A stretch of DNA of 29,605 bases from Schleiferiaceae bacterium. Its GTDB lineage: Bacteria > Bacteroidota > Bacteroidia > Flavobacteriales > Schleiferiaceae. The translations under genes and the position numbers were made by a program. Location of the stretch: positions 1 through 29,605 of the forward strand of contig JAURMB010000085.1 in NCBI GenBank assembly GCA_030831045.1, written 5' to 3'. Shown one piece after another: positions 8,358-29,605 of the stretch (the first letter of the stretch is position 1; each line of letters starts with the position of its first letter). The notes beneath the pieces are model-generated. The model did no database searches. It was not told where the DNA came from and saw only the letters and a program-made list of their open reading frames with translations.

Positions 8358-10609
8358 TGCCCGGCAGATGGATTCCGCTCACCCGGACCGTTGGCCGGAA
8401 AGCCATTAAATTGCCGCCAGAGCTCAAACCACATGGGCACGTCGTTAAGCAGCAAGGTTGCCGTTACGTGGGTCCCTGGTCGTGCATTGGTTGGCCACGG
8501 TTCCGTGGGCTCGAGCACGACGGCAAAACGTCCTTCGGCGTCAGCCTGCGAGGCGATGTAGCGGATTTTGGCCGAAAAAAGGCCGACGCTGGATCGGGGC
8601 CAACCCGGTATTTGAAGGATGGGCCAACCGTCTAGGGCGCAAAGCGCAGAATCCCCTACCGACAGCAACGGCACATCAAAGGGCTCAACCTTGGCCATCA
8701 CGACCGTCGGCGCCCCCTCCGGTGCCAAGTACAGCAGCGGTTGGTCTTTTTTAACCGAAGCGCCCGGGGCCACGTAGCTCAACTGAACGACAAATCCGTC
8801 GCGCGGCGCCAGCAGCGCACGGTTACCTTGGCGGCGCTGAACTCCGCCTACCTTGATTTGCGCATCGGCCAGTGCATTTTGAGCGCTGGCCATATCTGCG
8901 GCGGCAGCGGCGCGTTCGCTGCGCAGTTTCGCAATTTTCTCTTGCCATTCCGCGGACTTGCTTCGGGCGTTTAGGCGCGACGATTGCCAGTCTTGTTCGG
9001 TAAACTCCGCTTTAGATCGGGCCTCCTGAGCTTTGGTTTGGCGCTGCTCCCACTCGAGGCGACTCAAAGCACCCCAACGGAACAAGCTGTCGGCTCGCTG
9101 CGCCTGCAAGCCCGCATAGCGTGCCTCAAGGGCTGCCGCCTGGTACTTCGCGCTGTCGGCGCGGACTTTGCGCCAGGCCGCCGCAATCTGCAGGGGCATC
9201 GCGGCTTGAGCCTGCTGAATTTGTACCTCAAGAGCAGAAATTTTTTGTCGGTATCCGTCTACGGCGTTTGATTTGGCATCCCGGCCCAGCTCCGTATTGC
9301 TCAGCACGTTGGGGTCCATGTACTCCGTTTTGGTTTCTTCGAGCAACGCCAGCGTGTCGCCTTGCTTGACCGCATCCCCTTCGCGTACGAGCCATGCAGC
9401 CAGTCGGCCGTCTTCGGCCATCGCCAAGGGCATCATGCGGTCCATTGGGTCGTCAAATACCAGCGAGCCCTCCGTGGCCACGGTTTGGGTCCACGGTAAA
9501 AAGAACGAAAGCACGACAAAAACCGAAACGGCCACAATCCAACGCCGCGGACGCACCCACTGATCCGTAGCCCGAGTTTCCATGCAAATCTGGCGAAGTT
9601 CCTCAGGTATGTCGGCGTGTTCAATATCAAAGTCGCTGAACGCCTGAGGCTTGAGGTCGCGGGTCCAAAAGGCCTTGTCGAGTTTGACGACCGAAGTGAG
9701 CATATCAAACAGCGATTCCGCGCTCGAAACGAGTTTTTCAAGGCTCGTCAAAATGGTTAAAAAGATGATTTCAACCGCAACAAATTGACCGATTGATACG
9801 CTTCGGTCGACCACGAGCCATCCGCCCGCAATGAGCAGTAAGGCCGTAAAAGCAAGGCGAAGGCCGACCATGATGGAATTCATGCGGTAGACGACCCTAA
9901 AGTGGTCCTGGCGGTTGCGCAAGTAGCCCACGAGCAGCCGCGAAACCGACGCGTAGGGGGGCGGAGAATTCGGCGCACCCGATCGCTCGCGCGCGAAGTG
10001 CTCAATCTGGTCAACGATACGGTACTTCTCGGAACTTTCGTCGATGCTGTACCCGAGTCCGCGCGAAAACCCGATGCGAATCATAATGCCTGCAATACCC
10101 AAAATCAGAAACGAAACCGCCACGAACATAAAGTCGTACAGCATCAGGAGCAAAAAGCCAAAAAGCAGCTGTAGGATGGCCGCTGAGGCCGTTACCAAAA
10201 TTTTTGGCAGTTCTTTTTGAATGGTAATGGTATCAAAAAACCGGTGGACGCGCTCGTACCAGGTCTTTTGGTCTTCTTCGGGCACCACCGCCGGCATGAC
10301 CGACATAAAGTAGGTGGCGCTGCGCACGAATATGCGCTGCTGAACCCACTCCGAAAGGCGCATTTGGAACAGCCCAAAAAGACCCATAAACAAGCTAGAA
10401 ACCACCACCAACACCGTAAGAATCAGCCAGGTTGACGACAATCGGCCGCCCATTAGCTGCCCTACAAGCGCTTGAACACCTAGGGGCAGCATCAAGCTAA
10501 ATGCGCCACTGAGAACGGCAAACGAAAGGATGCGCAAAATGTCTTTGCGATCCCACTGAAGCAAGGAAAAGAGGCGCTGAAACGCTTCTGACGATTTGGT
10601 TTTTGCCAT
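8354..10609 (-). CDS. ABC-exporter membrane domain fused to HlyD-type adaptor, no ATPase domain
   Basis: A 751-residue inner-membrane/periplasmic protein. Residues about 1-315 resemble the transmembrane domain of a type-I ABC exporter, with hydrophobic segments near 28-50, 60-80, 139-158, 160-180, 250-267 and 275-290 and the usual cytoplasmic helix loops. A linker (316-354) replaces the nucleotide-binding domain: no Walker A, LSGGQ or Walker B is found. One further membrane helix at 356-372 leads to a membrane fusion protein: first lipoyl half (397-425, with EGDAVKQGDTL), coiled-coil hairpin (440-590), second lipoyl half (595-630, with APRDGFV) and beta-barrel (635-720). It sits between a DUF481 gene and TolC. 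How export is energised is unclear; an ATPase might act in trans. Confidence 0.85.
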   Translation of the reverse strand: MAKTKSSEAFQRLFSLLQWDRKDILRILSFAVLSGAFSLMLPLGVQALVGQLMGGRLSSTWLILTVLVVVSSLFMGLFGLFQMRLSEWVQQRIFVRSATYFMSVMPAVVPEEDQKTWYERVHRFFDTITIQKELPKILVTASAAILQLLFGFLLLMLYDFMFVAVSFLILGIAGIMIRIGFSRGLGYSIDESSEKYRIVDQIEHFARERSGAPNSPPPYASVSRLLVGYLRNRQDHFRVVYRMNSIMVGLRLAFTALLLIAGGWLVVDRSVSIGQFVAVEIIFLTILTSLEKLVSSAESLFDMLTSVVKLDKAFWTRDLKPQAFSDFDIEHADIPEELRQICMETRATDQWVRPRRWIVAVSVFVVLSFFLPWTQTVATEGSLVFDDPMDRMMPLAMAEDGRLAAWLVREGDAVKQGDTLALLEETKTEYMDPNVLSNTELGRDAKSNAVDGYRQKISALEVQIQQAQAAMPLQIAAAWRKVRADSAKYQAAALEARYAGLQAQRADSLFRWGALSRLEWEQRQTKAQEARSKAEFTEQDWQSSRLNARSKSAEWQEKIAKLRSERAAAAADMASAQNALADAQIKVGGVQRRQGNRALLAPRDGFVVQLSYVAPGASVKKDQPLLYLAPEGAPTVVMAKVEPFDVPLLSVGDSALCALDGWPILQIPGWPRSSVGLFSAKIRYIASQADAEGRFAVVLEPTEPWPTNARPGTHVTATLLLNDVPMWFELWRQFNGFPANGPGERNPSAGQ

Positions 10610-10643
10610 GCCGCCGCTTGTACCAAACAGCGTGCCGTGTCAG

Positions 10644-11408
10644 CTAGAACTTCCAGCTTAGGCCCGTCGTGCTGTACAAGGTGAATTGAGGAACGTCTGT
10701 TCCAGCCGGATAAGCGTCGTAGTTCAATTGCCCAATAACCACCAGACTTAAATCGGGCCGCAAGGGCGCGGAGAGCCGCGAATTTATCATGGCCCGAATG
10801 TCTTCAAATCGCCCAAATCGGGGCTGGTAGTAGGCCACGGTGGTCCAGCGCCACTGATCCCACTGCCGATCCAAGCTGACGTAGGTGTTCAACCGAAGGG
10901 CGTGGTCCGTTTTGGCTGAAAACGACTCAACGTCGTACTCGTACATGAGCAACGGGTTAATGTACAGCTTGACCCCCGGCGCCGAAATCGCGGTGTAGCG
11001 CGGGCCACCCCCAAGGTTAAAGCGCCGCGCGATGCGCATCGGCAAGTTGCTCTGCCACTCCACAAAATACTCCGCCGTGATTTTCTCGTTGTAGATGCGG
11101 TTGTACCGTACATGAAGCATTCCGTTTCGCTCAAAGTCAAACTTGCTGTCGCCCAGCCGGGTTGCCCAGTTGGCGCTGGCGATTCCGTACCAAACGTGGT
11201 CGTCAACCCGGCGCGTCGCATTGACCGAGCCGTTGAGCTTGAGCAGAAGGGCTTGCGTACCCCCGAGGTAAAAACCTCCGTCAACCCGGCCGTGAACATC
11301 TTCGGTCGTATCCTGCTCGGCGGGACCGCGCATGGCTTCGACGTTAACGATTTGTGCGCGGAGCACCGACGACCAAAGTCCGATAGCGGCGAGCATCCAG
11401 AGTTTCAT
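10644..11408 (-). CDS. DUF481 family outer-membrane protein
   Basis: A 254-residue exported protein with a signal peptide (MKLWMLAAIGLWSSVLRA, cleavage near AQ). The rest is rich in amphipathic beta-strands with alternating aromatic residues, ending in WKF as expected for an outer-membrane barrel. The pattern DGGFYLGGTQ...NGSVNAT...GIASANWATRL...RYNRIYNEKITAEYFVEWQ...GGGPRY fits the DUF481/YdiY-like family. It is the first gene of the export operon, 34 bases ahead of the ABC-adaptor fusion, and has its own promoter box. Its role is unknown; it might assist or stabilise the exporter at the outer membrane. Confidence 0.8.
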   Translation of the reverse strand: MKLWMLAAIGLWSSVLRAQIVNVEAMRGPAEQDTTEDVHGRVDGGFYLGGTQALLLKLNGSVNATRRVDDHVWYGIASANWATRLGDSKFDFERNGMLHVRYNRIYNEKITAEYFVEWQSNLPMRIARRFNLGGGPRYTAISAPGVKLYINPLLMYEYDVESFSAKTDHALRLNTYVSLDRQWDQWRWTTVAYYQPRFGRFEDIRAMINSRLSAPLRPDLSLVVIGQLNYDAYPAGTDVPQFTLYSTTGLSWKF

Positions 11409-11412
11409 GCGT

Positions 11413-11420
11413 CAAAAGTA
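11413..11420 (-). promoter_or_regulatory. -7 box of export operon (DUF481 gene)
   Basis: TACTTTTG fully matches TAnnTTTG and ends 4 bases before the ATG at 11408, predicting a transcript that starts at the start codon. It is divergent from the box at 11439-11446, 18 bases away. Confidence 0.65.
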
Positions 11421-11438
11421 CCTAAATCATGCGGCGCG

Positions 11439-11446
11439 TATGTTTG
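11439..11446 (+). promoter_or_regulatory. -7 box of secreted protein gene
   Basis: TATGTTTG fully matches TAnnTTTG and ends 4 bases before the ATG at 11451. This fixes the start at 11451 even though the reading frame stays open upstream through the neighbouring gene. Confidence 0.65.
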
Positions 11447-11450
11447 CATT

Positions 11451-12044
11451 ATGCTTGCAACCCGAATTTTTACTGCTTTCTTGGCGCTGAGCGCCCCGGC
11501 CTTTGGGCAATCTGACGACCTCCAGCAGCGCATCAAAGGCTTTCAATCGGAATTAGCTGCAACCTATGCGGTAAAAACGCTTAACCTTCAGGGCGAATCT
11601 TTAGGGGCCCTCGAAAAAGAGGAGCCCGCCTTTCAAACCCACTTCAAGCTGGAGGCCAAAGAAAAAAGCGAGGACAACCTCGGCCGCAGCACCAAGCTGA
11701 ACGTTCACGTACGGGTGTTTGAATTTGCATCGACCGACGACCTCAACTGGGCCATGAAACGTTGGATGCCTGACTTCATCGACCACAATGCCGTTAAGCC
11801 TGGACGCGACTCCAAAACCCTACCGCATGCCGATCCGGCACTGGTCGTGATCGAAGGCACGGTGATCACGGTTCTAACCTTTCCCTGCAGCCAGTTTGAT
11901 TTAGACCGCTTTCGTACGTGGCGCAAGCACCTGCTGACCTACTTTGGCGGGGCTTCATCAGTCGTTATTGAAGTTCAGGGCTGCGAAGGCCCATTGCTTT
12001 GGACCAAGAATGCTCCGGACCCCAAGGATCGGACGTGGAAGTAG
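11451..12044 (+). CDS. Secreted protein of unknown function
   Basis: I do not recognise this 197-residue protein. It begins with a clear signal peptide (MLATRIFTAFLALSAPAFG, then QSDD), so it should be periplasmic or surface-exposed. The mature part is mixed alpha/beta and charged, with two Cys (FPCSQFD and VQGCEGP) that could pair, and no membrane segment or catalytic motif. The open frame extends far upstream, but the start at 11451 is supported by the signal peptide and a perfect -7 box. It diverges from the export operon with a 42-base gap and overlaps the 3' end of the ComM-like gene by 80 bases. Confidence 0.75.
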   Translation: MLATRIFTAFLALSAPAFGQSDDLQQRIKGFQSELAATYAVKTLNLQGESLGALEKEEPAFQTHFKLEAKEKSEDNLGRSTKLNVHVRVFEFASTDDLNWAMKRWMPDFIDHNAVKPGRDSKTLPHADPALVVIEGTVITVLTFPCSQFDLDRFRTWRKHLLTYFGGASSVVIEVQGCEGPLLWTKNAPDPKDRTWK

Positions 12045-13380
12045 TGCGGAACTGGCTCGAATGAAACGAGATCGCGAGCCACGCGTCGTGTGCCGTCACG
12101 CGGCTGCGCTGGCTCCAATCGGCCGAAGTTCGGGCCACCCGCATGGCATGGTGCAGCGCCCGAAGCCCCAGCCCACTCTTTTTGTGCCAGCTTTGCATGG
12201 TTTCGAGGGCGTCTCGCGAAAATCCAGCATCTAAGCCAAAGAACTCTACCGGCATCGCGCCGTTGCCCATCCAAGGACCCCGATTGCGCTGCACGTCTAC
12301 CGCATGGCGCAGTTTAAAAACCAATTCATCCCAAGGGACTGAAATTCGTTCGTCGCGCATCGAAAGGGCCAGGGCAATATGGAACCGATCAAGAAACGGC
12401 GCCGAAAACCGTTCTTGGTAGCGGGAGATTCGGTTGGTGGAGCAGGTGCATTTGACGTGCTCGTGCCCCGTGAACCCGCAAGGACAAGGATTAGTTGCCC
12501 CAATCACTAGCGGGCTTGGCGGCGCTTCGCGCGCCCACAATGCCTCCATAGGTTTGCGCAGACCCTCAAGCGTGCGAACGGGCATTTCGCCCAGTTCGTC
12601 AAGAAAAAGAACTCCGGAGCCCGCCGCCCAAAATGCGCCGTTTACCCCGACGAGCTGCACCGGAGTGAGGCTTGATGGAGGTTCCACGTACGGCGTATTG
12701 GGTTCTACTGCGCTGCGAAGCAGGTGAACCGCGCGCGCAAATTCCGTTTTACCAACACCCGGGGCACCATGCAAAAACGCGGGGTGGCGACCGGCCGCGA
12801 CAAGTCCAAGAGCCGTGACGGCCTTGGGGCTAAGCTCCAGGCTCGGCCACGTCGGAATTGTACGAATTCGCGCCGGTACTTCAGCGTCCTCGATGGGATG
12901 TCCCGAACGTACCACGGCGAGCACTTCGGCCAACGTCCGCACTGGGGACCACAGGGGACCTTGCTGCTTCCATGCGGCGGAACTCGGATAAATAAACAGT
13001 CCCTCATCCCCGGGCGGAGCGGGGCGATCCTGGTCAACCCAACTCACGCGGGACTTGAGGTCTAAGGTTCCGACCGCACAAACGCCGTCTCGAAACGGAA
13101 TCTGCCCCGAAGCCATAAGAACCCCCAACGCAATGGGCAGGTCCATGGAGCTACCCAACTGCCACGGGCGTGACGGGTGAAAGGAAACGGTGATGCGCTT
13201 TCCGGGCCACTTGGCGCCCACCTCAAGGAGGGCCGCGTGGATTCGGTTAGGCGCCTCGCGAACCGTTGGATCGCGGGTTCCGACCATGTGAAACGAAAAT
13301 CCCGGCGTAGCCGCGACGTCAATGCGCAGCTCGTGCCAGCGGGCCTCGGCCCATACCCAAGTCAATAATGAAACTACCAT
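11965..13380 (-). CDS. comM: ComM/YifB-family Mg-chelatase-like ATPase, divergent
   Basis: A 471-residue AAA+ protein. The family is a helicase promoting branch migration during natural transformation. Domains in order: a Lon-protease-like N-terminal domain (DLPIALGVLMASGQI at 80-94), the AAA+ core with Walker A GAPGVGKT (205-212), Walker B VLFLDE (257-262) and the Cys-rich NPCPCG...CTC segment, then the C-terminal Mg-chelatase helical domain. The family's PFRxPHHT block between Walker A and B is replaced by unrelated residues and the loop before NPCPCG is shortened. The start at 13380 is chosen from the family N-terminus and a nearby promoter box. The last 26 or so residues are antisense to the secreted protein gene and look like an added tail. 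Confidence 0.85.
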   Translation of the reverse strand: MVVSLLTWVWAEARWHELRIDVAATPGFSFHMVGTRDPTVREAPNRIHAALLEVGAKWPGKRITVSFHPSRPWQLGSSMDLPIALGVLMASGQIPFRDGVCAVGTLDLKSRVSWVDQDRPAPPGDEGLFIYPSSAAWKQQGPLWSPVRTLAEVLAVVRSGHPIEDAEVPARIRTIPTWPSLELSPKAVTALGLVAAGRHPAFLHGAPGVGKTEFARAVHLLRSAVEPNTPYVEPPSSLTPVQLVGVNGAFWAAGSGVLFLDELGEMPVRTLEGLRKPMEALWAREAPPSPLVIGATNPCPCGFTGHEHVKCTCSTNRISRYQERFSAPFLDRFHIALALSMRDERISVPWDELVFKLRHAVDVQRNRGPWMGNGAMPVEFFGLDAGFSRDALETMQSWHKKSGLGLRALHHAMRVARTSADWSQRSRVTAHDAWLAISFHSSQFRTTSTSDPWGPEHSWSKAMGLRSPELQ

Positions 13381-13384
13381 GGCG

Positions 13385-13392
13385 CAAACCAA
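13385..13392 (-). promoter_or_regulatory. -7 box of comM-like gene
   Basis: TTGGTTTG differs from TAnnTTTG at one position and ends 4 bases before the ATG at 13380. Its spacing equals that of the other start-proximal boxes. Confidence 0.45.
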
Positions 13393-13460
13393 CGCCCCCA
13401 TCACTGGGGCAGTCGGTAGCAAATGGATTTAGTCGTTTAGTTCGGATCGCTCCTGCGCCT

Positions 13461-13865
13461 TCACTCCTCTAAGCCCCACGAACGCTGAAGTTCTGGATTG
13501 AGGAACACGTGGCTGTACACGAGCAGGTCCGCAGACTGAAACAGCGCGTAGCCATTGAGTTCCAAATGGTAGTCCACCTCAGACTCTACACTGCGCAGCA
13601 CCCAGCGCTTTTGGCCCTTATTCCACAGAAAAACGCCCAACTCCTCGGCCGAATCGGGCACGGGCTTGAACTTCACAATATCCCATTCATACAAATGCGT
13701 GCGGTGGCGGTCCCGCAAACCCACCGCCTCGTCGACGTGCTCGTACTCCAACGGCTTACCGGTCCACCAAAAACCGTCGGGCGAATAAAAATCCGTGCCT
13801 TCAATCCTTCGCAGATACCCCACGACGCGTTCACCGACGCGCAGTCGGTAGCGATGCTCCATCAT
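13461..13865 (-). CDS. YopX-like small protein
   Basis: A 134-residue cytoplasmic protein with no signal or membrane segment. The central VGLRDRHRTHLYEWDIVKF closely follows the YopX consensus GLxDKxGxxIYEGDIVxF, and the end (LLVYSHVFLNPEL) fits the family's VIGNIxENPEL motif, so I infer the YopX-like beta-barrel fold. The diagnostic EGD is EWD here. Such proteins are usually encoded by phages and plasmids, with no clear biochemical role. This one lies 37 bases after the glycosyltransferase on the same strand, perhaps the last gene of the long operon. Either of two adjacent ATG codons may be the start. Confidence 0.65.
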   Translation of the reverse strand: MMEHRYRLRVGERVVGYLRRIEGTDFYSPDGFWWTGKPLEYEHVDEAVGLRDRHRTHLYEWDIVKFKPVPDSAEELGVFLWNKGQKRWVLRSVESEVDYHLELNGYALFQSADLLVYSHVFLNPELQRSWGLEE

Positions 13866-13902
13866 TACTTAGGTAACCCCCAAGCGCCAAAATTGTTGCG
13901 TA

Positions 13903-14853
13903 CTACACCCCCAATCGCTTCAACGCCAACCGAACGGTGTCTGCGCTGAGTTCCGCACGGCAGGCCCAGTCCCCGCGGCGGCACCCATCGGACCCTAAAA
14001 TGCTGCAGGGCTGGCAGTCCAAACGTGGCTCAGTTGCCAAGTGCTCCACCGGACCGGGCGCAGCGAACCCTCCCGCCGGATGCGTTCCCGCCCAAAGGGC
14101 CACGGCCGGAACCTGGTACCGATAAGCCAAATGCTGCGCCGCCGAATCGCACACAACCGCGGCCCGAGCCCGGCGCCACAGCGCATCCTCCTCGTGGGCG
14201 GAACACCCGACAGCCGACGCAAAACCTTTGGGGGTACGGTCGCTTGGACCCCCAAGAAACACCACCTCGTAGCCTTCATCTTGAAGTTGCCGTCCCAGCC
14301 GGGATGCCTCGTCCAACGGCCACCGCTTGGATTCGCGGCTCGCATGGGGCGCCACGAGAATCAGATTTTCGCGCGGCGCAGGGGCTTCCAAAGCGCGGAC
14401 ACTCGGCCACCCTAACTCCTCCAACGCCACCTTGTGAAGATCGTAGGCGTTGGGAACCTCCTGCGTTCCTCCGGCAAGGAGTGCTCTTCGCGCGGCCCGT
14501 GGCTTAACCACCTGACCGAAAGGGATTTGAAGTACGGCTGCGATCCAGCGGCTGCTTCGGGTGCGCACGTGGCTGTGGGCATCGTACCATTCGGTGAGGT
14601 CCGCCGAGCGCATCCAACCCCACCAAAACCACATCAGCGCAAAAAAGCGGCGGTAGGGCCCGCGGTCCACATCAAGCCCGTGCACGTCGATACCGGGGTG
14701 CGCCGGCAGGCGCTCCGCCCAACGCGGTCGGGTAAAAAGGGTGATGCGGTCGCCGTCCGTCACCGCCTGCGACAGCACCGAATGAAGCAAAACGACGTCG
14801 CCGAAGGCCGAAAACCGCACGACGCCGAGGTGGCGTTTAGCCCTGAGCCCCAT
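13903..14853 (-). CDS. Glycosyltransferase family 9 (heptosyltransferase-like)
   Basis: A 316-residue GT-B enzyme of the ADP-heptose:LPS heptosyltransferase family (GT9), probably adding a sugar to lipopolysaccharide core or another surface glycan at the inner face of the inner membrane. The N-terminal VVRFSAFGDVVLLHSVL matches the family's RxSAxGDVxxxxP opening. In the second half VAPHASRESKRWP, VFLGGPSD, AVVCDSAAQHLAYRYQVPAVALWAGTHP and the late CQPCSILGSDGCRRG Cys cluster match the donor-binding domain and typical C-terminus. It starts 17 bases inside the end of the DUF4254 gene, so the two are translationally linked. The donor sugar cannot be read from the sequence. Confidence 0.9.
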   Translation of the reverse strand: MGLRAKRHLGVVRFSAFGDVVLLHSVLSQAVTDGDRITLFTRPRWAERLPAHPGIDVHGLDVDRGPYRRFFALMWFWWGWMRSADLTEWYDAHSHVRTRSSRWIAAVLQIPFGQVVKPRAARRALLAGGTQEVPNAYDLHKVALEELGWPSVRALEAPAPRENLILVAPHASRESKRWPLDEASRLGRQLQDEGYEVVFLGGPSDRTPKGFASAVGCSAHEEDALWRRARAAVVCDSAAQHLAYRYQVPAVALWAGTHPAGGFAAPGPVEHLATEPRLDCQPCSILGSDGCRRGDWACRAELSADTVRLALKRLGV

Positions 14854-15439
14854 AAAGCGCCGGATTCGTTGCCGGATCGTTGTACAGCTTAAACTGGCGG
14901 TAGGGCGTGTAGCGCACCGAACCCGAAACCACCTCAGCCCAAAGTCCGGCGCAGGCGGTCATGAGGTCAACGTGCTGGGCGTCCGCCGCTTCAAGGCGCT
15001 GGCCGCACGCAGTCCGATGCGCGTCAAGGGCATCGCTTCGCTCAACTTCTGCGCGAAGGTGGTAGCGCTTGAGCTGCAAAATGCACAATCGATCAAGGGC
15101 CCAAGCAAGCGATTCGGTCCGCAACGCGCCGCCAACAGCAACCTCAGGCTGAAGTAGGGCCGCAAGGCGCACATCAAGGGCCTCGACGGCGTTGGTGCGT
15201 TCTTGGTTGAGGGCGTCAATTCGGCGTTTTATGGCCATCAACTGATCAGACGGCAGGTCGGTGCGCCGCACTTCGTCTTCGAGGTGCCACTGCACCGTGT
15301 CGATCCATGCCTTGGCGTACCAAGCTTGGTCCAGGCTGCCGGCTTTGTAGGCCGTCGGACACGGTGCGTCCCAGCGGTCGAGCACGTGGTAGTCTTCGAT
15401 GGCTGCCTCGAGCAGCGCAAGGATGCGTTCGAGCGTCAC
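14837..15439 (-). CDS. DUF4254 domain protein
   Basis: A 200-residue, mostly helical cytoplasmic protein with the DUF4254 pattern: WHLEDEVRR near residue 51, RRIDALNQERTNAVEALD in the middle and LCILQLKRYH later. It has no signal peptide or membrane segment. To my knowledge the family is largely confined to Bacteroidota, often beside GT9 glycosyltransferases, as here, so a role in surface-glycan synthesis is inferred from context only. It starts with GTG; the GTGA overlaps the dsbD stop by 4 bases. Its own end overlaps the glycosyltransferase start by 17 bases. Confidence 0.8.
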   Translation of the reverse strand: MTLERILALLEAAIEDYHVLDRWDAPCPTAYKAGSLDQAWYAKAWIDTVQWHLEDEVRRTDLPSDQLMAIKRRIDALNQERTNAVEALDVRLAALLQPEVAVGGALRTESLAWALDRLCILQLKRYHLRAEVERSDALDAHRTACGQRLEAADAQHVDLMTACAGLWAEVVSGSVRYTPYRQFKLYNDPATNPALYGAQG

Positions 15440-17523
15440 TTCGCCGCGTTAAACGTTTTGAGTCCGGCGTCCAGCCAGTTCAAAAAAATCGTGGGATCGG
15501 GGTCGTAGGCCGTGTGTCCGTTGATCGCTGCCGGTGCCTCAACCGCCGGATCCATCAGCACGTAGTAGGGCTGGGCGTTGGCATTAAAGTACTGAGCCTG
15601 AAGGTCGCCCCACTTTTGGCCCACCGTCTTTATTTTTTTGCCCGTCGTTGCGCTGACGCGGACCTCATCTGCGGGCAGGGCCGAGCGTTCGTCGACGTAG
15701 AGCGACACCAGCACCACGTCTTCGGCAAGGCGTTGGCGCACCTCGGGGCGCGACCAAACCTCTTCTTCCATTTTGCGGCAGTTGACGCAGCCCCAGCCCG
15801 TGAAATCGAGAAGCAAGGGCTTGCCGGCCTCGAGGGCGTAGGCTCGAGCTTCTTCTAGGTCGTTAAAGCAGGGCAGGTTCAGCGGGCAGTGGGCGTCTTC
15901 GCTCAGCTTCACTTCGCTTGAGGCTGCGGAACCTGACCCCAATCCGTTGGGGTTTTCGGCATAAAACGAGGGCGGAGGAAATCCGGCTACAAGCTTTACC
16001 GGCGCCCCCCAGATTCCGGGAAGTAGGTAAAAGCCCGTTACCAAAAAGAGGAGGCCCGTGAGCATGCGGCCCACTCCGAGTCCGCCCTTGGGCTCGTCGT
16101 CGTGGGGCATGCGAAACACGCCAAAAAGGTACAGAGCCGTCGCAAACGCTATGGCCACCCAAAGGGCCAAAAAGAGCTCGCGCTCCAGCCAGTGCTTTTG
16201 CCATACCATGTCGGCCGTGCTCAAGAACTTTAGCGCGAAGGCCAGCTCTAGGAAGCCCAGCGTGACCTTGACGGTATTGAGCCATCCGCCCGACTTGGGT
16301 AAGCCCTTCAGCCATCCGGGGAAGGCCGCAAACAGCACAAACGGAAGCGATAGCGCAAAACTGAACCCGAACATTCCGACGGCGGGACCGAGCAGCTCAC
16401 CGCTCACGGCCGTGGCCACGAGCAGCTGTCCGATCAGCGGGCCGGTGCAGCTGAAGCTCACCAGCGCCAGGGTAAAGGCCATGAAGAAGATTCCGAGGAG
16501 TCCGCCGCGCTGCGACTGGTCGTCAGCCTTGTTGACCCACGACGACGGAAGCGTGATTTCAAAGGCCCCAAAAAAGCTAATGGCAAACACCACAAACAGG
16601 GCAAAAAACGCCAAGTTGAACCACGGATTGGTCGCCATGGCATTGAGCGCATCTGAACCAAAAACCACCGTGACGAGAAGCCCCAAAACCACGTAGATCA
16701 CGTTGATGCTTACCCCGTAGAGGATGGCCTTGCGCACGCCGTCGGCTTTGGACTTGCTTTGCTTGAGAAAGAAGCTGACGGTAAGCGGAATCATCGGGAA
16801 GATGCAGGGCATGATTAGCGCAAAAAAACCGCCGAGCATTCCGGCGCCGAACAGGGCCCAGAGGTTGACGGCTTCGGCGCTTTCGGGCTCCTGGCCCGGG
16901 GTGCCGACCAGCTCTTGCCCCTCTTCGACCGCAGGGGTCTCGCCTCTGTCCTTCGCGCCATCTGAATTATCGGCCGAGGCCGAAGGGGCCTCGTCGGCCT
17001 GGGTCTGCTGCTCGTTGAGCTCGGACGGCTTGCTCGGCATTTCTTCACCGACCAACTCGGTCGCTGCTGCGGCCGGAACCTTAAACACCAAACTCACGTA
17101 GTCGGGCGGAAGGCAGCGCTCGTCGTCGCACACCATGAACTCAACCTCGGCCGTGTAGGTAAAGGCCTTGGGATTGCTGCGCTTGGCGGCAATCACGAAG
17201 TCGGCCTTCTTGGCGAAGTAGGCCAGCTCCATGCCAAAATTTTTATCAAATTCCTTGATGGGCTTGGGCTCGCGCACGGGGCCCTGGGTTTTGAGGTCCT
17301 TAGACGCGGGCAGCGTGAATGCGGTTGGAATCGGTCCGTCGCTTCCAATAAACTGCGAATACACGTGCCAGCCGGCGTCAATTTTGGCGGACGCCACAAG
17401 TTCCAGGGTGCCGTCGGTAGCGGTCCGCACCGAAGTGCTCCACGTCACCGGCTGCAGAATTTGCGCCACGGCCATCGTGCTCGAAAAAGCAAGGGCGAGC
17501 GCCGCGAGAAGAAATCGGTTCAT
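15436..17523 (-). CDS. dsbD: DsbD-like thiol:disulfide interchange protein
   Basis: A 695-residue inner-membrane reductase that carries electrons from cytoplasmic thioredoxin to periplasmic targets. Domains: signal peptide (1-20), a periplasmic DsbD-alpha domain with the Cys pair CDDERC (132-137), a linker rich in acidic residues, a CcdA-like membrane core with about eight helices and the Cys-containing CIFPMIPL and SCTGPLIG motifs, and a C-terminal thioredoxin-like domain with CVNC at 579-582. All three redox pairs are present. The start at 17523 is set by the signal peptide and an adjacent -7 box; the frame stays open further upstream into tilS. It lies 5 bases downstream of tilS. Confidence 0.94.
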   Translation of the reverse strand: MNRFLLAALALAFSSTMAVAQILQPVTWSTSVRTATDGTLELVASAKIDAGWHVYSQFIGSDGPIPTAFTLPASKDLKTQGPVREPKPIKEFDKNFGMELAYFAKKADFVIAAKRSNPKAFTYTAEVEFMVCDDERCLPPDYVSLVFKVPAAAATELVGEEMPSKPSELNEQQTQADEAPSASADNSDGAKDRGETPAVEEGQELVGTPGQEPESAEAVNLWALFGAGMLGGFFALIMPCIFPMIPLTVSFFLKQSKSKADGVRKAILYGVSINVIYVVLGLLVTVVFGSDALNAMATNPWFNLAFFALFVVFAISFFGAFEITLPSSWVNKADDQSQRGGLLGIFFMAFTLALVSFSCTGPLIGQLLVATAVSGELLGPAVGMFGFSFALSLPFVLFAAFPGWLKGLPKSGGWLNTVKVTLGFLELAFALKFLSTADMVWQKHWLERELFLALWVAIAFATALYLFGVFRMPHDDEPKGGLGVGRMLTGLLFLVTGFYLLPGIWGAPVKLVAGFPPPSFYAENPNGLGSGSAASSEVKLSEDAHCPLNLPCFNDLEEARAYALEAGKPLLLDFTGWGCVNCRKMEEEVWSRPEVRQRLAEDVVLVSLYVDERSALPADEVRVSATTGKKIKTVGQKWGDLQAQYFNANAQPYYVLMDPAVEAPAAINGHTAYDPDPTIFLNWLDAGLKTFNAAK

Positions 17524-25302: not shown

Positions 25303-25845
25303 ATGCGTTTATTGCTTGTTTCTGGAACCCTTTGTGCCGCCCTCTCGGCATCTGCCCAAAGTTCGGACTTTGTCGATGCCTTGTTTTTAATTGAAGAGTC
25401 GTCGATGATTCGTGCCGTTAATGCCCAAAGTGCCAATTTAACGGACCTTACATTTTACTTGATGGCCCCCAATGTGCCAGGTGCCGCTTACCCCGCGGTA
25501 CCCAACCAAACCATGTACCTTCAGTACACCTCGGTAAAAACGGCGGCACCCGACGACCAACGGCAAATTAGCGTGGACATCGTCGGTGGCACGCTTCCCG
25601 ATGGCGTTAGCCTAACGCTAACTGCGACGGGCGCTGGGATTGGCGATTTTGGATCAGGCCACGAATTGGAACTCACCAGCGCCACCACCTCGGGCGTCTT
25701 AGTTGACGGAATCGGTTCCGCCTATTCGGGAATTTCCTCGGGTCAAGGCATTCCCGTGACGTATGCTGTGAATTTTGCCACCCAAGACTTGGACGCTTCC
25801 ACGGCCGGTGTGGTGTCGCTTCAGTTCACAATGAGCAACTTCTAA
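25303..25845 (+). CDS. Small secreted beta-rich protein, candidate fibre subunit
   Basis: A 180-residue exported protein: signal peptide MRLLLVSGTLCAALSASA (then QSS), mature part of about 160 residues. It is Gly/Ser/Thr/Val-rich, lacks Cys and Lys-rich parts, and has alternating hydrophobic residues suggesting an Ig-like beta sandwich. It ends with a strand (GVVSLQFTMSNF) that has the alternating pattern and final aromatic of chaperone-usher pilins. Similarity to a named pilin family is not certain; a DUF4402-type protein is one possibility. It is the first of three overlapping genes, the next being a PapD-like chaperone, which is the main reason to call it a subunit. ATG 25303 is chosen for its signal peptide. 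Confidence 0.7.
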   Translation: MRLLLVSGTLCAALSASAQSSDFVDALFLIEESSMIRAVNAQSANLTDLTFYLMAPNVPGAAYPAVPNQTMYLQYTSVKTAAPDDQRQISVDIVGGTLPDGVSLTLTATGAGIGDFGSGHELELTSATTSGVLVDGIGSAYSGISSGQGIPVTYAVNFATQDLDASTAGVVSLQFTMSNF

Positions 25846-26507
25846 TGCGGAGTTTTGCTCAAGGTCTAGGTCCAAATCATCTTTGGGCCTGGCTCTTTCT
25901 TTCGGTTGGTGTGTCCGCCGGGCTGCGGGCCCAAGTTGTGGTGCGGAATGGGTTAAGTCACGTTCACGCATGGACAAGCAACCCGAGCGGCACAATCGAC
26001 CTGAAAAATTCAAGCGACCAACCGGTAACGGCCTACGTGACCGCCGACAGCCTTTGGGGGCCTCAAAATGCGCTACAAATTCCCAGTCAGGTCAGCTTGG
26101 ACGCCAATGAATCGCGCTCAGTGCCCTACCGCTGGCTGAACGATGATTCGGTGAGCCAAGCAACCCGCATCTACATAACCACCGATCAGCCAACCCTCGA
26201 AGCTTCGCCCAAGCAAGCACTCACCCTGCGCATCTCAACGCGCTACGCCGTCGATTTATATCGCGGACCTGTCGGAACGGAACTCGATCTGGAATGGGTA
26301 GATGGCGGAGTTAAGGTCCAGAATTCGTCAACCTCCTTTTGGGCCGGAGCCTGCTACGAACTTCGAGATTTCGAACGTTTTGGAAACCGATTGGCCGGCG
26401 GGGTTCTGCGTCCCGGTGACCATCGAATTTGGCGGATTCCACCAGGCGCTCAGGGCGTTTGGATTGAAACGTCCCAGGGCAGTGTTTTAGCTTCTTTGCG
26501 CCCATGA
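25845..26507 (+). CDS. PapD-like periplasmic chaperone
   Basis: A 220-residue exported protein with a signal peptide (about 1-29, cleavage near LRAQ). Two Ig-like halves can be traced. The first follows PapD: SNPSGTIDLKNSSDQPVTAYV, the PSQVSLDANESRSVPY strand, RIYITTDQP and LTLRISTRYAVDLYR. The second has GGVKVQNSSTSFWAGAC and GGVLRPGDHRIWRIP, the latter matching the chaperone's late Pro-Gly turn. The Arg and Lys that anchor a pilin C-terminus in classic PapD are not obvious (Asp sits where Lys is expected before LYR), so binding details may differ. Its ATG shares one base with the preceding stop, and the next gene overlaps by 4 bases. Confidence 0.7.
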   Translation: MRSFAQGLGPNHLWAWLFLSVGVSAGLRAQVVVRNGLSHVHAWTSNPSGTIDLKNSSDQPVTAYVTADSLWGPQNALQIPSQVSLDANESRSVPYRWLNDDSVSQATRIYITTDQPTLEASPKQALTLRISTRYAVDLYRGPVGTELDLEWVDGGVKVQNSSTSFWAGACYELRDFERFGNRLAGGVLRPGDHRIWRIPPGAQGVWIETSQGSVLASLRP

Positions 26508-27739
26508 GCTTCGCCCTATGGTGGGCCCTGACGTATTCGCAAAGTGGGCTGTTGCCGTTACTTGGAGGCAGTTTTTTAGGGCCCAAAAGCCACCTATGGG
26601 CCCAAACCGCGTTGGCCAGTGAGGGCATTCGGTCGCAACTTACCGCCGCTTATGGTCCCTGGTCCTTGAAGTACGGCAGCCAGAACTTAGGTTGGGGTTG
26701 GAGCATCGACCACCGCGGAACAGGACTGTGGTGGTCTCCGCGCAACGGACTGGGAATCTTAAGTAAGGGCCACGTACTTCGCGGCAAACATCAGGTATCC
26801 TATCAGGTAGCTGCGCACCGCACGCACTTCGTGGGAAGGTTGAGCTGGAACGGAATCTCGCTGCAGCAAAACCTAGGCGGCGCGACTTCGGTATCCGCGC
26901 AAATTGGGCCGCAACGCCTTGAGGCCAGCTACCGGCAGAAGTGCATACAGGTTGGGCTTCGCAGCCCAATGATCGACGTCCGCTGGGCTCAAGGACCGTC
27001 GCAGCAGCTTGGCATGATTCGCGTGCATCATGCTTCAGGCAGTTTAGAATACCGCCGCCAATCAAGTTCCGTTCGCAGCTCCAATCAATTCATCGTGACG
27101 ACAAAAGCTCGGGATTATCAGTTTTGGTTGCACGCAGCCTTCTACGATCATAAAGCAGAACTCAGCTTGCGAACGTGGATCGAAACGCAAAAACTCGGTC
27201 GATGGTCCGTATTCGTGGATTCCCGAACGTCTACCGCTCGATGGTCGCCGGGAGCTTGGTCGCGTTGGCAAGGAAGCTACATTCAGTTGGGGACCCCGAC
27301 CGCATTGAGGCTTAGCCATGATCAGCTTTCGGTAACGGGAGAATGGGGGCGGAACGGCAAATTGAGTCAGTTATCCGTTGCGTCCAGAATTCCCTTTAAT
27401 CCGGTTAACGCCAAACCGAAGGCAGACTTGGCGGACCTAAAACCCTCTTGGCTGAGCATCAATTTGGACTACCGAGGGGAACTACCCTACTCGTACCTCG
27501 AACTTTCGGGCTCAACTACGCACCGAATAAAACTGGCTCCGCAAAACCGACAGTGGAGCGATCACATACCGCCCGGCACCTATGCGGTACGGGGGGTCAC
27601 CGCAAAGGACTGGGCCATTGAGGTGTCCGCAGACAGCCTTAGCCTGAATTCGGGTCAAATTACCCAAATAACTGCTCGAATCTCCCGACCCGATGGGCTT
27701 GTTCGGTGGATCAGCGCGTCAGGTGCAGCTGCGGAATGA
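26504..27739 (+). CDS. Short outer-membrane beta-barrel-like protein, candidate usher
   Basis: I do not recognise a named family. The 411-residue protein begins with a weak signal-like region (hydrophobic 1-25, then SHLWAQ) and continues with about 270 residues of alternating short strands rich in Trp, Tyr, Arg and Gly, as in an outer-membrane barrel. The last 90 residues form a soluble beta domain with HIPPGTYAVRGV and SLNSGQITQI, like the carboxypeptidase-regulatory or usher C-terminal folds. Position after the subunit and the PapD-like chaperone is that of an usher, but ushers are about 800 residues, so it would be a reduced one. The ATG overlaps the chaperone stop (ATGA); its end overlaps the convergent PAP2 gene by 29 bases. 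Confidence 0.6.
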   Translation: MSFALWWALTYSQSGLLPLLGGSFLGPKSHLWAQTALASEGIRSQLTAAYGPWSLKYGSQNLGWGWSIDHRGTGLWWSPRNGLGILSKGHVLRGKHQVSYQVAAHRTHFVGRLSWNGISLQQNLGGATSVSAQIGPQRLEASYRQKCIQVGLRSPMIDVRWAQGPSQQLGMIRVHHASGSLEYRRQSSSVRSSNQFIVTTKARDYQFWLHAAFYDHKAELSLRTWIETQKLGRWSVFVDSRTSTARWSPGAWSRWQGSYIQLGTPTALRLSHDQLSVTGEWGRNGKLSQLSVASRIPFNPVNAKPKADLADLKPSWLSINLDYRGELPYSYLELSGSTTHRIKLAPQNRQWSDHIPPGTYAVRGVTAKDWAIEVSADSLSLNSGQITQITARISRPDGLVRWISASGAAAE

Positions 27740-28442
27740 GGTATCCGACCGCGGCTCCCACTGCGAACCCTACCAATACATCTGAGGGGTAGTGTTTTCC
27801 TGCCTGAACCCGCTGCCAAGCCACATAAGCGGGAACCGCCGCTGCGGCCGACCACACTGCGGGCTTCCACCGGGAATTCGGGTGCAGGTCGCTCCACACT
27901 TTGGCCGCATAAAACGTGTTGCAAGCTGTGAGGCTCGCGTGGCCCGAAAAAAAGGACTTGCGGGCATCTGCCTCCATACGTTCCGCTAGGGGTGCCCCGT
28001 CGAAGTACACGAAGGGGCGGTTGCGGCGAACCGCATTTTTCACTGCATCCGTTAGCATCAAGGTACTGAGGTTGGCCTGGAACCACATGCTTCCAAGCAC
28101 GGCAGCATCGGCGATGCGGTGGTCGGCACGGGTGTGGGCAAGGGCCGTGATGCCCGCGGCGCCAAAAGCGGCGAACAGGGTATAATCCGACCGTTGTCCG
28201 GCGGCCTCGTTCCAGCGATTCAGGGCAACCCGATCGAAGCCCACCGCACGTGGCGCGCCGAGCATTGCAAGCTCAAATTCGCTGAATCCGCGATGCTGGC
28301 CAGCGGCATACCCGTTCCAACCGGCTAGGGCAGCGCTGGCCCCGTACGCCAAGCCGTCGGTCCGCAAGCTCAGACGGTACGGAAGTTGGGCCCAAAGGCC
28401 CTGCGCTGACAGCAACGCAAGCAGGCAAAAAACGCGTATCAT
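27711..28442 (-). CDS. PAP2-family phosphatase
   Basis: A 243-residue exported or membrane-associated protein of the phosphatidic acid phosphatase type 2 superfamily. All three motifs are present: KNAVRRNRP (Lys135 to Pro143), SFFSGHAS (163-170, with catalytic His) and RVQAGKHYPSD (Arg211, His217, Asp221). The start MIRVFCLLALLSAQGLWAQ is a signal peptide, so it acts in the periplasm or outer membrane, as in undecaprenyl-pyrophosphate or lipid A phosphatases; the substrate is not clear. ATG 28442 is chosen for the signal peptide. It begins 5 bases after the amylase stop, so the two form an operon. Confidence 0.88.
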   Translation of the reverse strand: MIRVFCLLALLSAQGLWAQLPYRLSLRTDGLAYGASAALAGWNGYAAGQHRGFSEFELAMLGAPRAVGFDRVALNRWNEAAGQRSDYTLFAAFGAAGITALAHTRADHRIADAAVLGSMWFQANLSTLMLTDAVKNAVRRNRPFVYFDGAPLAERMEADARKSFFSGHASLTACNTFYAAKVWSDLHPNSRWKPAVWSAAAAVPAYVAWQRVQAGKHYPSDVLVGFAVGAAVGYLIPQLHLTR

Positions 28443-28447
28443 GAGCA

Positions 28448-29605
28448 CTAGTACTGGACCTGCAAGGTATGGCGCTCGCTGCCCAAGGCATCGTGCACCT
28501 GAACCACGTACCACCCCGCCGGAAGTCCGCCGAGGTCTAGGTACTCGAGCTCCGCAGCTGAACGCTCCCAGTGGCGAAGTACGCGGCCTTGCGCGTCCAC
28601 CAGCTCCACGTGTCCTTCAGCCGCCGGACGCTCCAGCCAAAATCCGTTTGAGGCGGGATTTGGGTACACGCGGGTCAGGGGAACACCCGGAAGCTCTTCG
28701 ACATCGAGCGTGATCTGCGGCTGGGCCAGCTTGGCGCTGGTGTACACCCGGTACGCGCCGGGAGCCAGCGATAGGCTCGCATTAACGTCGGTCACGAGAA
28801 GGGTATCGCCGCTGAAGTACTCGTACCACGTTCCCGCGCCCGGGAAAGCCGGAATAATCGTCTGGGTCGTCACGCCGAAGTTGCCCAAGACCACTGCGTC
28901 CATTCCGCTGCTGTTAAACACCATGCGCTTGGTGGTGCCCGACAAACTGTAGGCAAACTGTCCGTCGCGGAACGTCGCCGGATGCGCGCGCCTTAGGTGA
29001 AACACCGCCGACGTCACGTCGTACAGGCGGCGGCGTTCCGGAACCTGGTAGTAGTTCCAGCGCAAGGGCTTGTTGCAGACCCGGCACGGAACATTTATCG
29101 ACACGTCGTAGCCCAGCTCGCCAAACATCCAAATCATTCGAGGTCCCGGAATCAGGTAGGCAAACAGGTTCACGGCCTCAGCGCGGCGCAACCCCGTAGC
29201 CAGCTGCTTTGGATTGTGGTTGGCGTTAGACGTATTCCCGTACGTGAGCACCTCGTACATCAGGCGTTCCTCGTCGTGGCTTTCGGGGTACGAAACCAAG
29301 GCGGGTTGCGACCATCCGCGCGCGCCGTGGTAGGCCCACGAAAAATTGCTCTGCGCGTTGCCCTGCCCTGCCTGGTGAAAATTGTAGGTTGAATTGCCCC
29401 AAAGCATAAAGCCATAGTCCGCCAGGGCCTTTTCTTCACTGTTGTCGGCCCAGTGCTCCAAAATCACGTGCGCATTGGGATTCACCGACCAAATCGTGTC
29501 GCCGATGCGCTTAATAATGGCTTGGCGGACCGCGGAACTCCCGGCGTTGCCGTTCAAAAAACCTTTGGTGTAGTCAAAGCGAATTCCGTCGATGCGGTAC
29601 TCCTG
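28448..29605 (-). CDS. GH13 alpha-amylase-family enzyme with T9SS sorting domain, 5' end cut
   Basis: The C-terminal 385 residues of a secreted glycoside hydrolase; the start lies beyond the right edge. The visible part begins at the fourth strand of the GH13 barrel: YRIDGIRFD contains the nucleophile Asp (residue 11 here), followed by ILEHW with the acid/base Glu (residue 50) and later YPESHDEER with the conserved His-Asp. A C-terminal beta domain follows, then a type IX secretion sorting domain (RVYPNPASNGF ... GLPAGWYVVQV ... final VQY). The enzyme is therefore likely released or anchored at the cell surface to degrade alpha-glucans such as starch or glycogen. It is cotranscribed with the PAP2 gene. 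Confidence 0.93.
   Translation of the reverse strand, partial: QEYRIDGIRFDYTKGFLNGNAGSSAVRQAIIKRIGDTIWSVNPNAHVILEHWADNSEEKALADYGFMLWGNSTYNFHQAGQGNAQSNFSWAYHGARGWSQPALVSYPESHDEERLMYEVLTYGNTSNANHNPKQLATGLRRAEAVNLFAYLIPGPRMIWMFGELGYDVSINVPCRVCNKPLRWNYYQVPERRRLYDVTSAVFHLRRAHPATFRDGQFAYSLSGTTKRMVFNSSGMDAVVLGNFGVTTQTIIPAFPGAGTWYEYFSGDTLLVTDVNASLSLAPGAYRVYTSAKLAQPQITLDVEELPGVPLTRVYPNPASNGFWLERPAAEGHVELVDAQGRVLRHWERSAAELEYLDLGGLPAGWYVVQVHDALGSERHTLQVQY

Follow-up and report, generated by a model that had tools for sequence, protein, structure and literature searches.

A candidate compact chaperone-usher-like gene cassette in a Schleiferiaceae bacterium and its relation to larger Bacteroidia gene clusters

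Which kind of system is encoded by three overlapping genes of a Schleiferiaceae bacterium that are ordered like subunit, chaperone and usher genes, but end with a protein of about half the length of an usher? The genes are located in a stretch of 29,605 nucleotides (contig JAURMB010000085.1 of assembly GCA_030831045.1, positions 1 to 29,605, forward strand), which is called the window here, and their products are called P1, P2 and P3. An earlier inspection of this DNA without database searches (the sequence-only reading) had considered a reduced route of surface protein assembly in Bacteroidota. Our analysis favors, with a probability of about 0.62, a compact chaperone-usher-like cassette, which would have been reduced from a Bacteroidota system with WxLIP-related larger chaperones and would work by the mechanism proposed below.

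The three open reading frames (ORFs) lie on the plus strand at 25303..25845 (P1), 25845..26507 (P2) and 26504..27739 (P3) and encode 180, 220 and 411 amino acids. The overlaps of 1 base (P1/P2) and 4 bases (P2/P3), already noticed in the sequence-only reading, were confirmed. Order and strand are kept in all 14 loci measured at both junctions (the window and 13 others; P1 of L076 is cut by a contig end), with start codons of the relatives picked by us or taken from ORF lists. Left out of this count were L007, where P3 is partly masked, and L008, L013 and L014, which are affected by contig ends. Across the 14 loci the spacing between P1 and P2 ranges from -4 to +6 bases, and P2 and P3 always overlap, by 4 bases in nine loci and by 11-22 bases in five. 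P2 is directly preceded by P1 in 16/16 compact loci that have P1 on the contig. The three-gene unit is not due to chance.

Homologues of P2 were found in 15 of 60 relatives, which belong to two genera. Among 88 genomes of the family, P1 was detected in 17 (E < 1e-30; 32 counting remote matches) and P3 in 18. A strong match to P1 (E < 1e-30), to P3 or to both was present in 19 of these genomes, and 16 of the 19 contain both; the matches in the other three, one with P1 but without P3 (G016) and two with P3 but without P1 (G012, G022), are all located at contig ends. Adjacency is not established in G002, because the contig with P1 is a different one from that with P2 and P3. Among the 88 family genomes the form with 411 amino acids was found only in two genera with genomes of 1.3-1.8 Mb, and a protein database search with P3 (7996 candidates scored) yielded at least 7 relatives. 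In G007 two short matches to the P3 C-terminus were seen on other contigs in addition to the main match, which may indicate a second copy or a broken assembly.

The cassette is conserved as a unit and is under purifying selection. The ratio of nonsynonymous to synonymous substitution rates (dN/dS) was 0.11 for P1, 0.16 for P2 and 0.15 for P3 in the pair L004/L005, the only one with dS < 1. Of 24 comparisons, 19 allowed dN/dS to be computed, and it was below 0.4 (0.025-0.36) in all 19, most of them with saturated dS. The occurrence of the compact form, in the family search, only in genera with small genomes and its missing domains and extra subunits would fit a decaying, functionless remnant of a larger cassette; the reading frames are intact in the complete loci, and because of the dN/dS values we regard decay as very improbable.

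P1 is the most conserved of the three proteins and appears from its sequence to be a subunit-like secreted protein. As had been read before, it starts with an ordinary signal peptide (residues 1-19, 25303..25359) that ends with ASAQ, and Q19 is invariant in the P1 alignment A1. A lipobox cysteine is absent from the cleavage region in both the sequence and this alignment, and a type V lipoprotein pilin was thereby ruled out for P1. The type V lipoprotein fimbriae of Bacteroidales share with the cassette that they are secreted, beta-rich surface subunits of Bacteroidota, but the window cassette additionally has a chaperone and a barrel. According to one paper, neither chaperones nor ushers are described for Porphyromonas gingivalis, and very little is known about the assembly of Bacteroidetes fimbriae (PMC5789003). 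Our literature search, which took in few subscription papers and no preprints, turned up no chaperone-usher system of Bacteroidota among the titles and beginnings of abstracts that were listed.

For P2 the AlphaFold2 model (predicted local distance difference test, pLDDT, 85.8) reveals a PapD-like double immunoglobulin (Ig) fold, and a Foldseek search with this model found PapD with a best E value of 1.9e-10. P2 is thus predicted with confidence to be a PapD-like two-Ig periplasmic chaperone, in agreement with the sequence-only reading. Its signal peptide ends near residue 29, and its C-terminal end is modeled as a beta-strand without a transmembrane helix. The lack of a clear Arg/Lys anchor, which had been pointed out before, has to be qualified: Arg133 is conserved in 27 and His39 (codon 25959..25961) in 26 of 28 aligned rows. 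These residues may correspond to Lys112 and Arg8 of PapD. His39, located 16 residues ahead of the conserved Asn55, is proposed as the counterpart of Arg8. Residues 133-141 (RYAVDLYRG, 26241..26267), in which Arg133 is followed by alternating Tyr, Val and Leu and which coincide with a modeled strand at 134-141, are proposed as the donor (G1) strand.

The AlphaFold2 model of P3 (pLDDT 84, predicted template modeling score, pTM, 0.55) consists of a large barrel and a C-terminal beta-sandwich. The barrel expected from the sequence-only reading is also supported by the amphipathicity of the strands; the beta-sandwich is an addition to it. In residues 2-298, 26 barrel strands are predicted. Since the first two are largely hydrophobic they may constitute an atypical signal peptide, and then 24 short strands remain within about 270 residues (about 29-298, 26588..27397). 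The turns between the barrel strands comprise 2-5 residues, except for two loops of 10 residues. The beta-sandwich (residues 315-394 with a PPGTY motif, 27446..27685) is related by profile alignment to larger usher-like proteins; kinship to the C-terminal domains of PapC and FimD is not established. Near relatives conserve the N-terminus of P3 (26504-26587) although it is uncharged, which Sec signal peptides usually are not, and the first basic residue is located at position 10-51 in 21 aligned rows.

With the classical chaperone-usher systems (PapD/FimC/Caf1M/CsuC; PF00345, PF00577) the cassette shares the order subunit-chaperone-barrel, the predicted two-Ig chaperone, and a predicted large barrel to which a beta-sandwich is attached C-terminally. 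In contrast, significant matches in Pfam or NCBIfam are lacking for all three proteins: P1 and P3 have zero Pfam matches up to E 1, and P2 a single chance match at 0.17. Searches of PDB sequences with P2 alone and with profiles of P1, P2 and P3 gave nothing with E < 0.1. P3 is also unlike an usher in its uncharged N-terminus, in its single C-terminal domain and in its length. A plug-sized insertion is absent, as no stretch of more than 10 residues separates predicted barrel strands, and an usher N-terminal domain is absent, as predicted barrel-like strands begin at residue 2. The classical usher model PF00577 matched neither P3 nor any of 149 Bacteroidia genomes, with a positive E. coli control, and P3 was rejected as a classical usher. 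The cassette was not assigned to the classical systems, because searches for their sequence models, for a plug and for an N-terminal domain were negative. The earlier statement that normal ushers do not fit holds for plug and length but not for the predicted strand number: the P3 model is compatible with a barrel that is usher-sized in strands (about 24) and short in residues.

Larger cassettes, apparently an unnamed family, are present in Bacteroidia. They consist of subunits, a chaperone of 255-325 amino acids, an usher-like protein of 741-1219 amino acids and often extra subunits. The P1 profile matched 5 of 395 genomes of the phylum, including the nearest relative G001; the other four matches are surrounded by a subunit, a chaperone of 263-267 amino acids, an usher-like protein of 910-1025 amino acids and further subunits. 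Similar clusters occur in other genera of the family of the window. At 26 of 32 fetched loci of the larger type, the chaperone gene and the usher-like gene are both complete and clustered together. Among the incomplete ones, the usher-like gene is cut by the contig end in L074, a cut usher-like gene and subunits are present in L066, and L069 has one subunit at a contig end; in L063, L065 and L067 the subunit genes neighbor that of a large protein, and the stretch contains no chaperone or usher-like gene. Of 345 Bacteroidia genomes, 56 were matched by a profile of the larger chaperones (38 of 178 genera), and an usher-like protein of 904-1219 amino acids belongs to the cluster at all 12 loci fetched from these 56 genomes, the one in L117 being judged by size and place only. 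As read from sequence and Pfam matches, the large usher-like proteins comprise an N-terminal Ig-like region, a barrel and two C-terminal domains. CarboxypepD_reg matched 11/11 and 9/11 members of two sets of them, and Ig-like models only a minority (E up to 0.1). In L061 the usher-like gene is separated from two subunits by a gene (8999-16966) for a protein of 2655 amino acids with Calx-beta matches, a possible giant adhesin. The loci L024-L027, L059-L062, L064 and L107-L118 combine a WxLIP-like chaperone, an usher-like protein of about 900-1200 amino acids and subunits; the usher model had no match to them in the genomes searched, and the papers listed do not name them.

Compact and larger forms are connected at all three genes. 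P2 aligned with the larger chaperones at E 8.4e-17 (hhalign), and in the larger cassettes it is the first subunit that is matched by the P1 profile, with E values from 4.4e-20 (L024) to 2.9e-8. P3 matched the larger usher-like proteins at E 5e-5 (probability 67) and forms of 741-762 amino acids (4 rows) at E 6e-6 (probability 85) over 296 columns across barrel and tail. Two sets of larger usher-like proteins matched each other at E 2e-57; a further score of 7e-75 between the alignments A9 and A5 was discarded as inflated because L070 is contained in both. Shuffled decoys reached the observed score in 0 of 60 cases in each of five tests, including that of P2, although one of the five had aligned the wrong domain. 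A related subunit, chaperone and last C-terminal domain of the usher-like protein are common to both forms. Missing from the compact form are the N-terminal Ig-like region, one of the two C-terminal domains, many residues of the barrel and the additional subunits. In a chaperone tree with long branches the compact forms are on one side of a branch with support 100/99. Since the larger forms are class-wide and the compact chaperones occupy one side of this branch in genera with genomes of 1.3-1.8 Mb, we infer that the compact form arose by reduction. The reduced route suggested by the sequence-only reading is supported by the larger cassettes of the same family and class.

Some of the larger chaperones also point to the WxL/WxLIP proteins (DUF916-DUF3324) of Gram-positive bacteria. 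PF11797 matched 6 and PF06030 4 of 11 rows of larger chaperones (E up to 0.1); in a wider set PF06030 matched 6 of 10 rows (E up to 0.1) and PapD_N one, at 0.0025. Chaperone profiles found the WxLIP structures 9i25/9i1y in the PDB with E values of 1.7e-4 and 2.5e-4. P2 itself is different, with 220 amino acids, no match to WxLIP models and a C-terminal beta-strand instead of a transmembrane helix; P1 has no WxL match, the host is a diderm and the partner is a barrel. One paper describes the predicted insertion of a WxLIP strand into WxL and proposes binding of WxLIP to WxL and peptidoglycan (PMC10599100). By analogy, P1 and P2 could act in the periplasm or in the cell wall, and P3 could be an ordinary porin- or receptor-like protein that ends in a beta-sandwich. 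In favor of this, the match of the P3 barrel to TonB receptors and porins is no worse than that to ushers. We consider this improbable, as P2 and P3 overlap at every measured junction, the C-terminus of P3 matches usher-like proteins of related clusters, and the pair of chaperone and usher-like protein recurs in the class.

According to the mechanism that we propose for a chaperone-usher-like cassette, P1 would be exported by Sec and held in the periplasm by P2 through a loaned beta-strand, probably RYAVDLYRG (donor-strand complementation). P3 would serve as a translocation pore of the outer membrane reduced to a barrel of about 24 strands and a single C-terminal domain in the periplasm, and it may take over P1 and expose or polymerize it at the surface. 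A related possibility, which we judge unlikely but clearly ahead of the porin-like one, is a display or adhesin complex in which P2 chaperones P1 and P3 holds a single P1 at the cell surface without forming a fiber. It would agree with the single subunit gene of the compact form, as opposed to two or three in many of the larger cassettes and the Calx-beta protein in one of these, and with the lack of a plug or N-terminal domain for cycling in P3. However, the related large cassettes resemble multi-subunit assembly systems, and one subunit gene suffices for a homopolymer.

Several observations weigh against the reading as a reduced chaperone-usher-like cassette. P1 matches no pilin model in Pfam, PDB and profile searches, P2 matches no PapD or WxLIP model of Pfam up to E 1, and PF11797 was found in 0 of 21 near-relative genomes. 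Other Ig-like families match the wider chaperones too (fn3_5 in 8/10 and MSP in 6/10 rows, E <= 0.1). The N-terminus of P3 (MSFALWWAL), with the first Lys/Arg at residue 28, is no classical signal peptide. The match of P3 to the larger usher-like proteins at E 5e-5 covers the C-terminal domain only, and with single sequences the best E value was a weak 0.0014. When P3 was compared with the widest usher set (A10) it exceeded the decoys, but its tail was aligned with the N-terminal Ig-like region and this result was not counted. In addition to the pTM of 0.55 for P3, its best listed Foldseek TM-score was 0.37 (FimD), the first three Foldseek rows were a rhamnogalacturonan lyase, and TonB receptors scored slightly above ushers with the barrel; because of these results P3 cannot be identified as an usher by its fold alone. 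The VIA-align lists re-examine Foldseek matches, and a family missing from them is not thereby ruled out. Furthermore, 6 of 22 genomes of the same genus have none of the genes, and the unrooted chaperone tree gives no direction of reduction. Genus g6, with genomes of 1.3-2.5 Mb, has kept usher-like proteins of 741-951 amino acids, which counters a simple genome-size argument. The outcomes that the sequence-only reading had set against itself beforehand (no Ig fold in P2, no barrel in P3, no co-occurrence) were not observed, and its interpretation is largely supported.

We put forward only tentatively, as somewhat doubtful, that a plugless usher of about 400 residues and about 24 strands, with no N-terminal or second C-terminal domain, suffices to export a chaperoned subunit and belongs to a Bacteroidota chaperone-usher superfamily whose chaperones share ancestry with WxLIP. 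If this is true, WxLIP and pilus chaperones would donate strands by one and the same ancient mechanism. The link to WxLIP offers a testable common origin of an assembly chaperone of Gram-negative bacteria and a surface system of Gram-positive ones. The compact form, with a single C-terminal domain and neither plug nor N-terminal domain, would raise the question of how small an usher can be. The contrast between a chaperone family in 56/345 Bacteroidia genomes and the classical usher model in 0/149 bears on the little-known fimbrial assembly of Bacteroidetes.

Downstream of the cassette, a gene for a PAP2-family phosphatase (27711-28514, minus strand) converges on P3 with a tail-to-tail overlap of 29 bases. 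The protein encoded at 28448-29605 (minus strand) runs off the end of the window and contains a type IX sorting domain of the Por_Secre_tail family (29 bits against a cut-off of 27); because of this domain the host probably has a type IX secretion system. P1, P2 and P3 were rejected as its cargo, since none of them matched Por_Secre_tail in the Pfam search. In one subclade (L009-L014) a gene for 195-201 amino acids is located directly upstream of P1, and the copy in L010 has a weak cNMP_binding match (23.2 bits, cut-off 27.5), which suggests a Crp/Fnr-type regulator.
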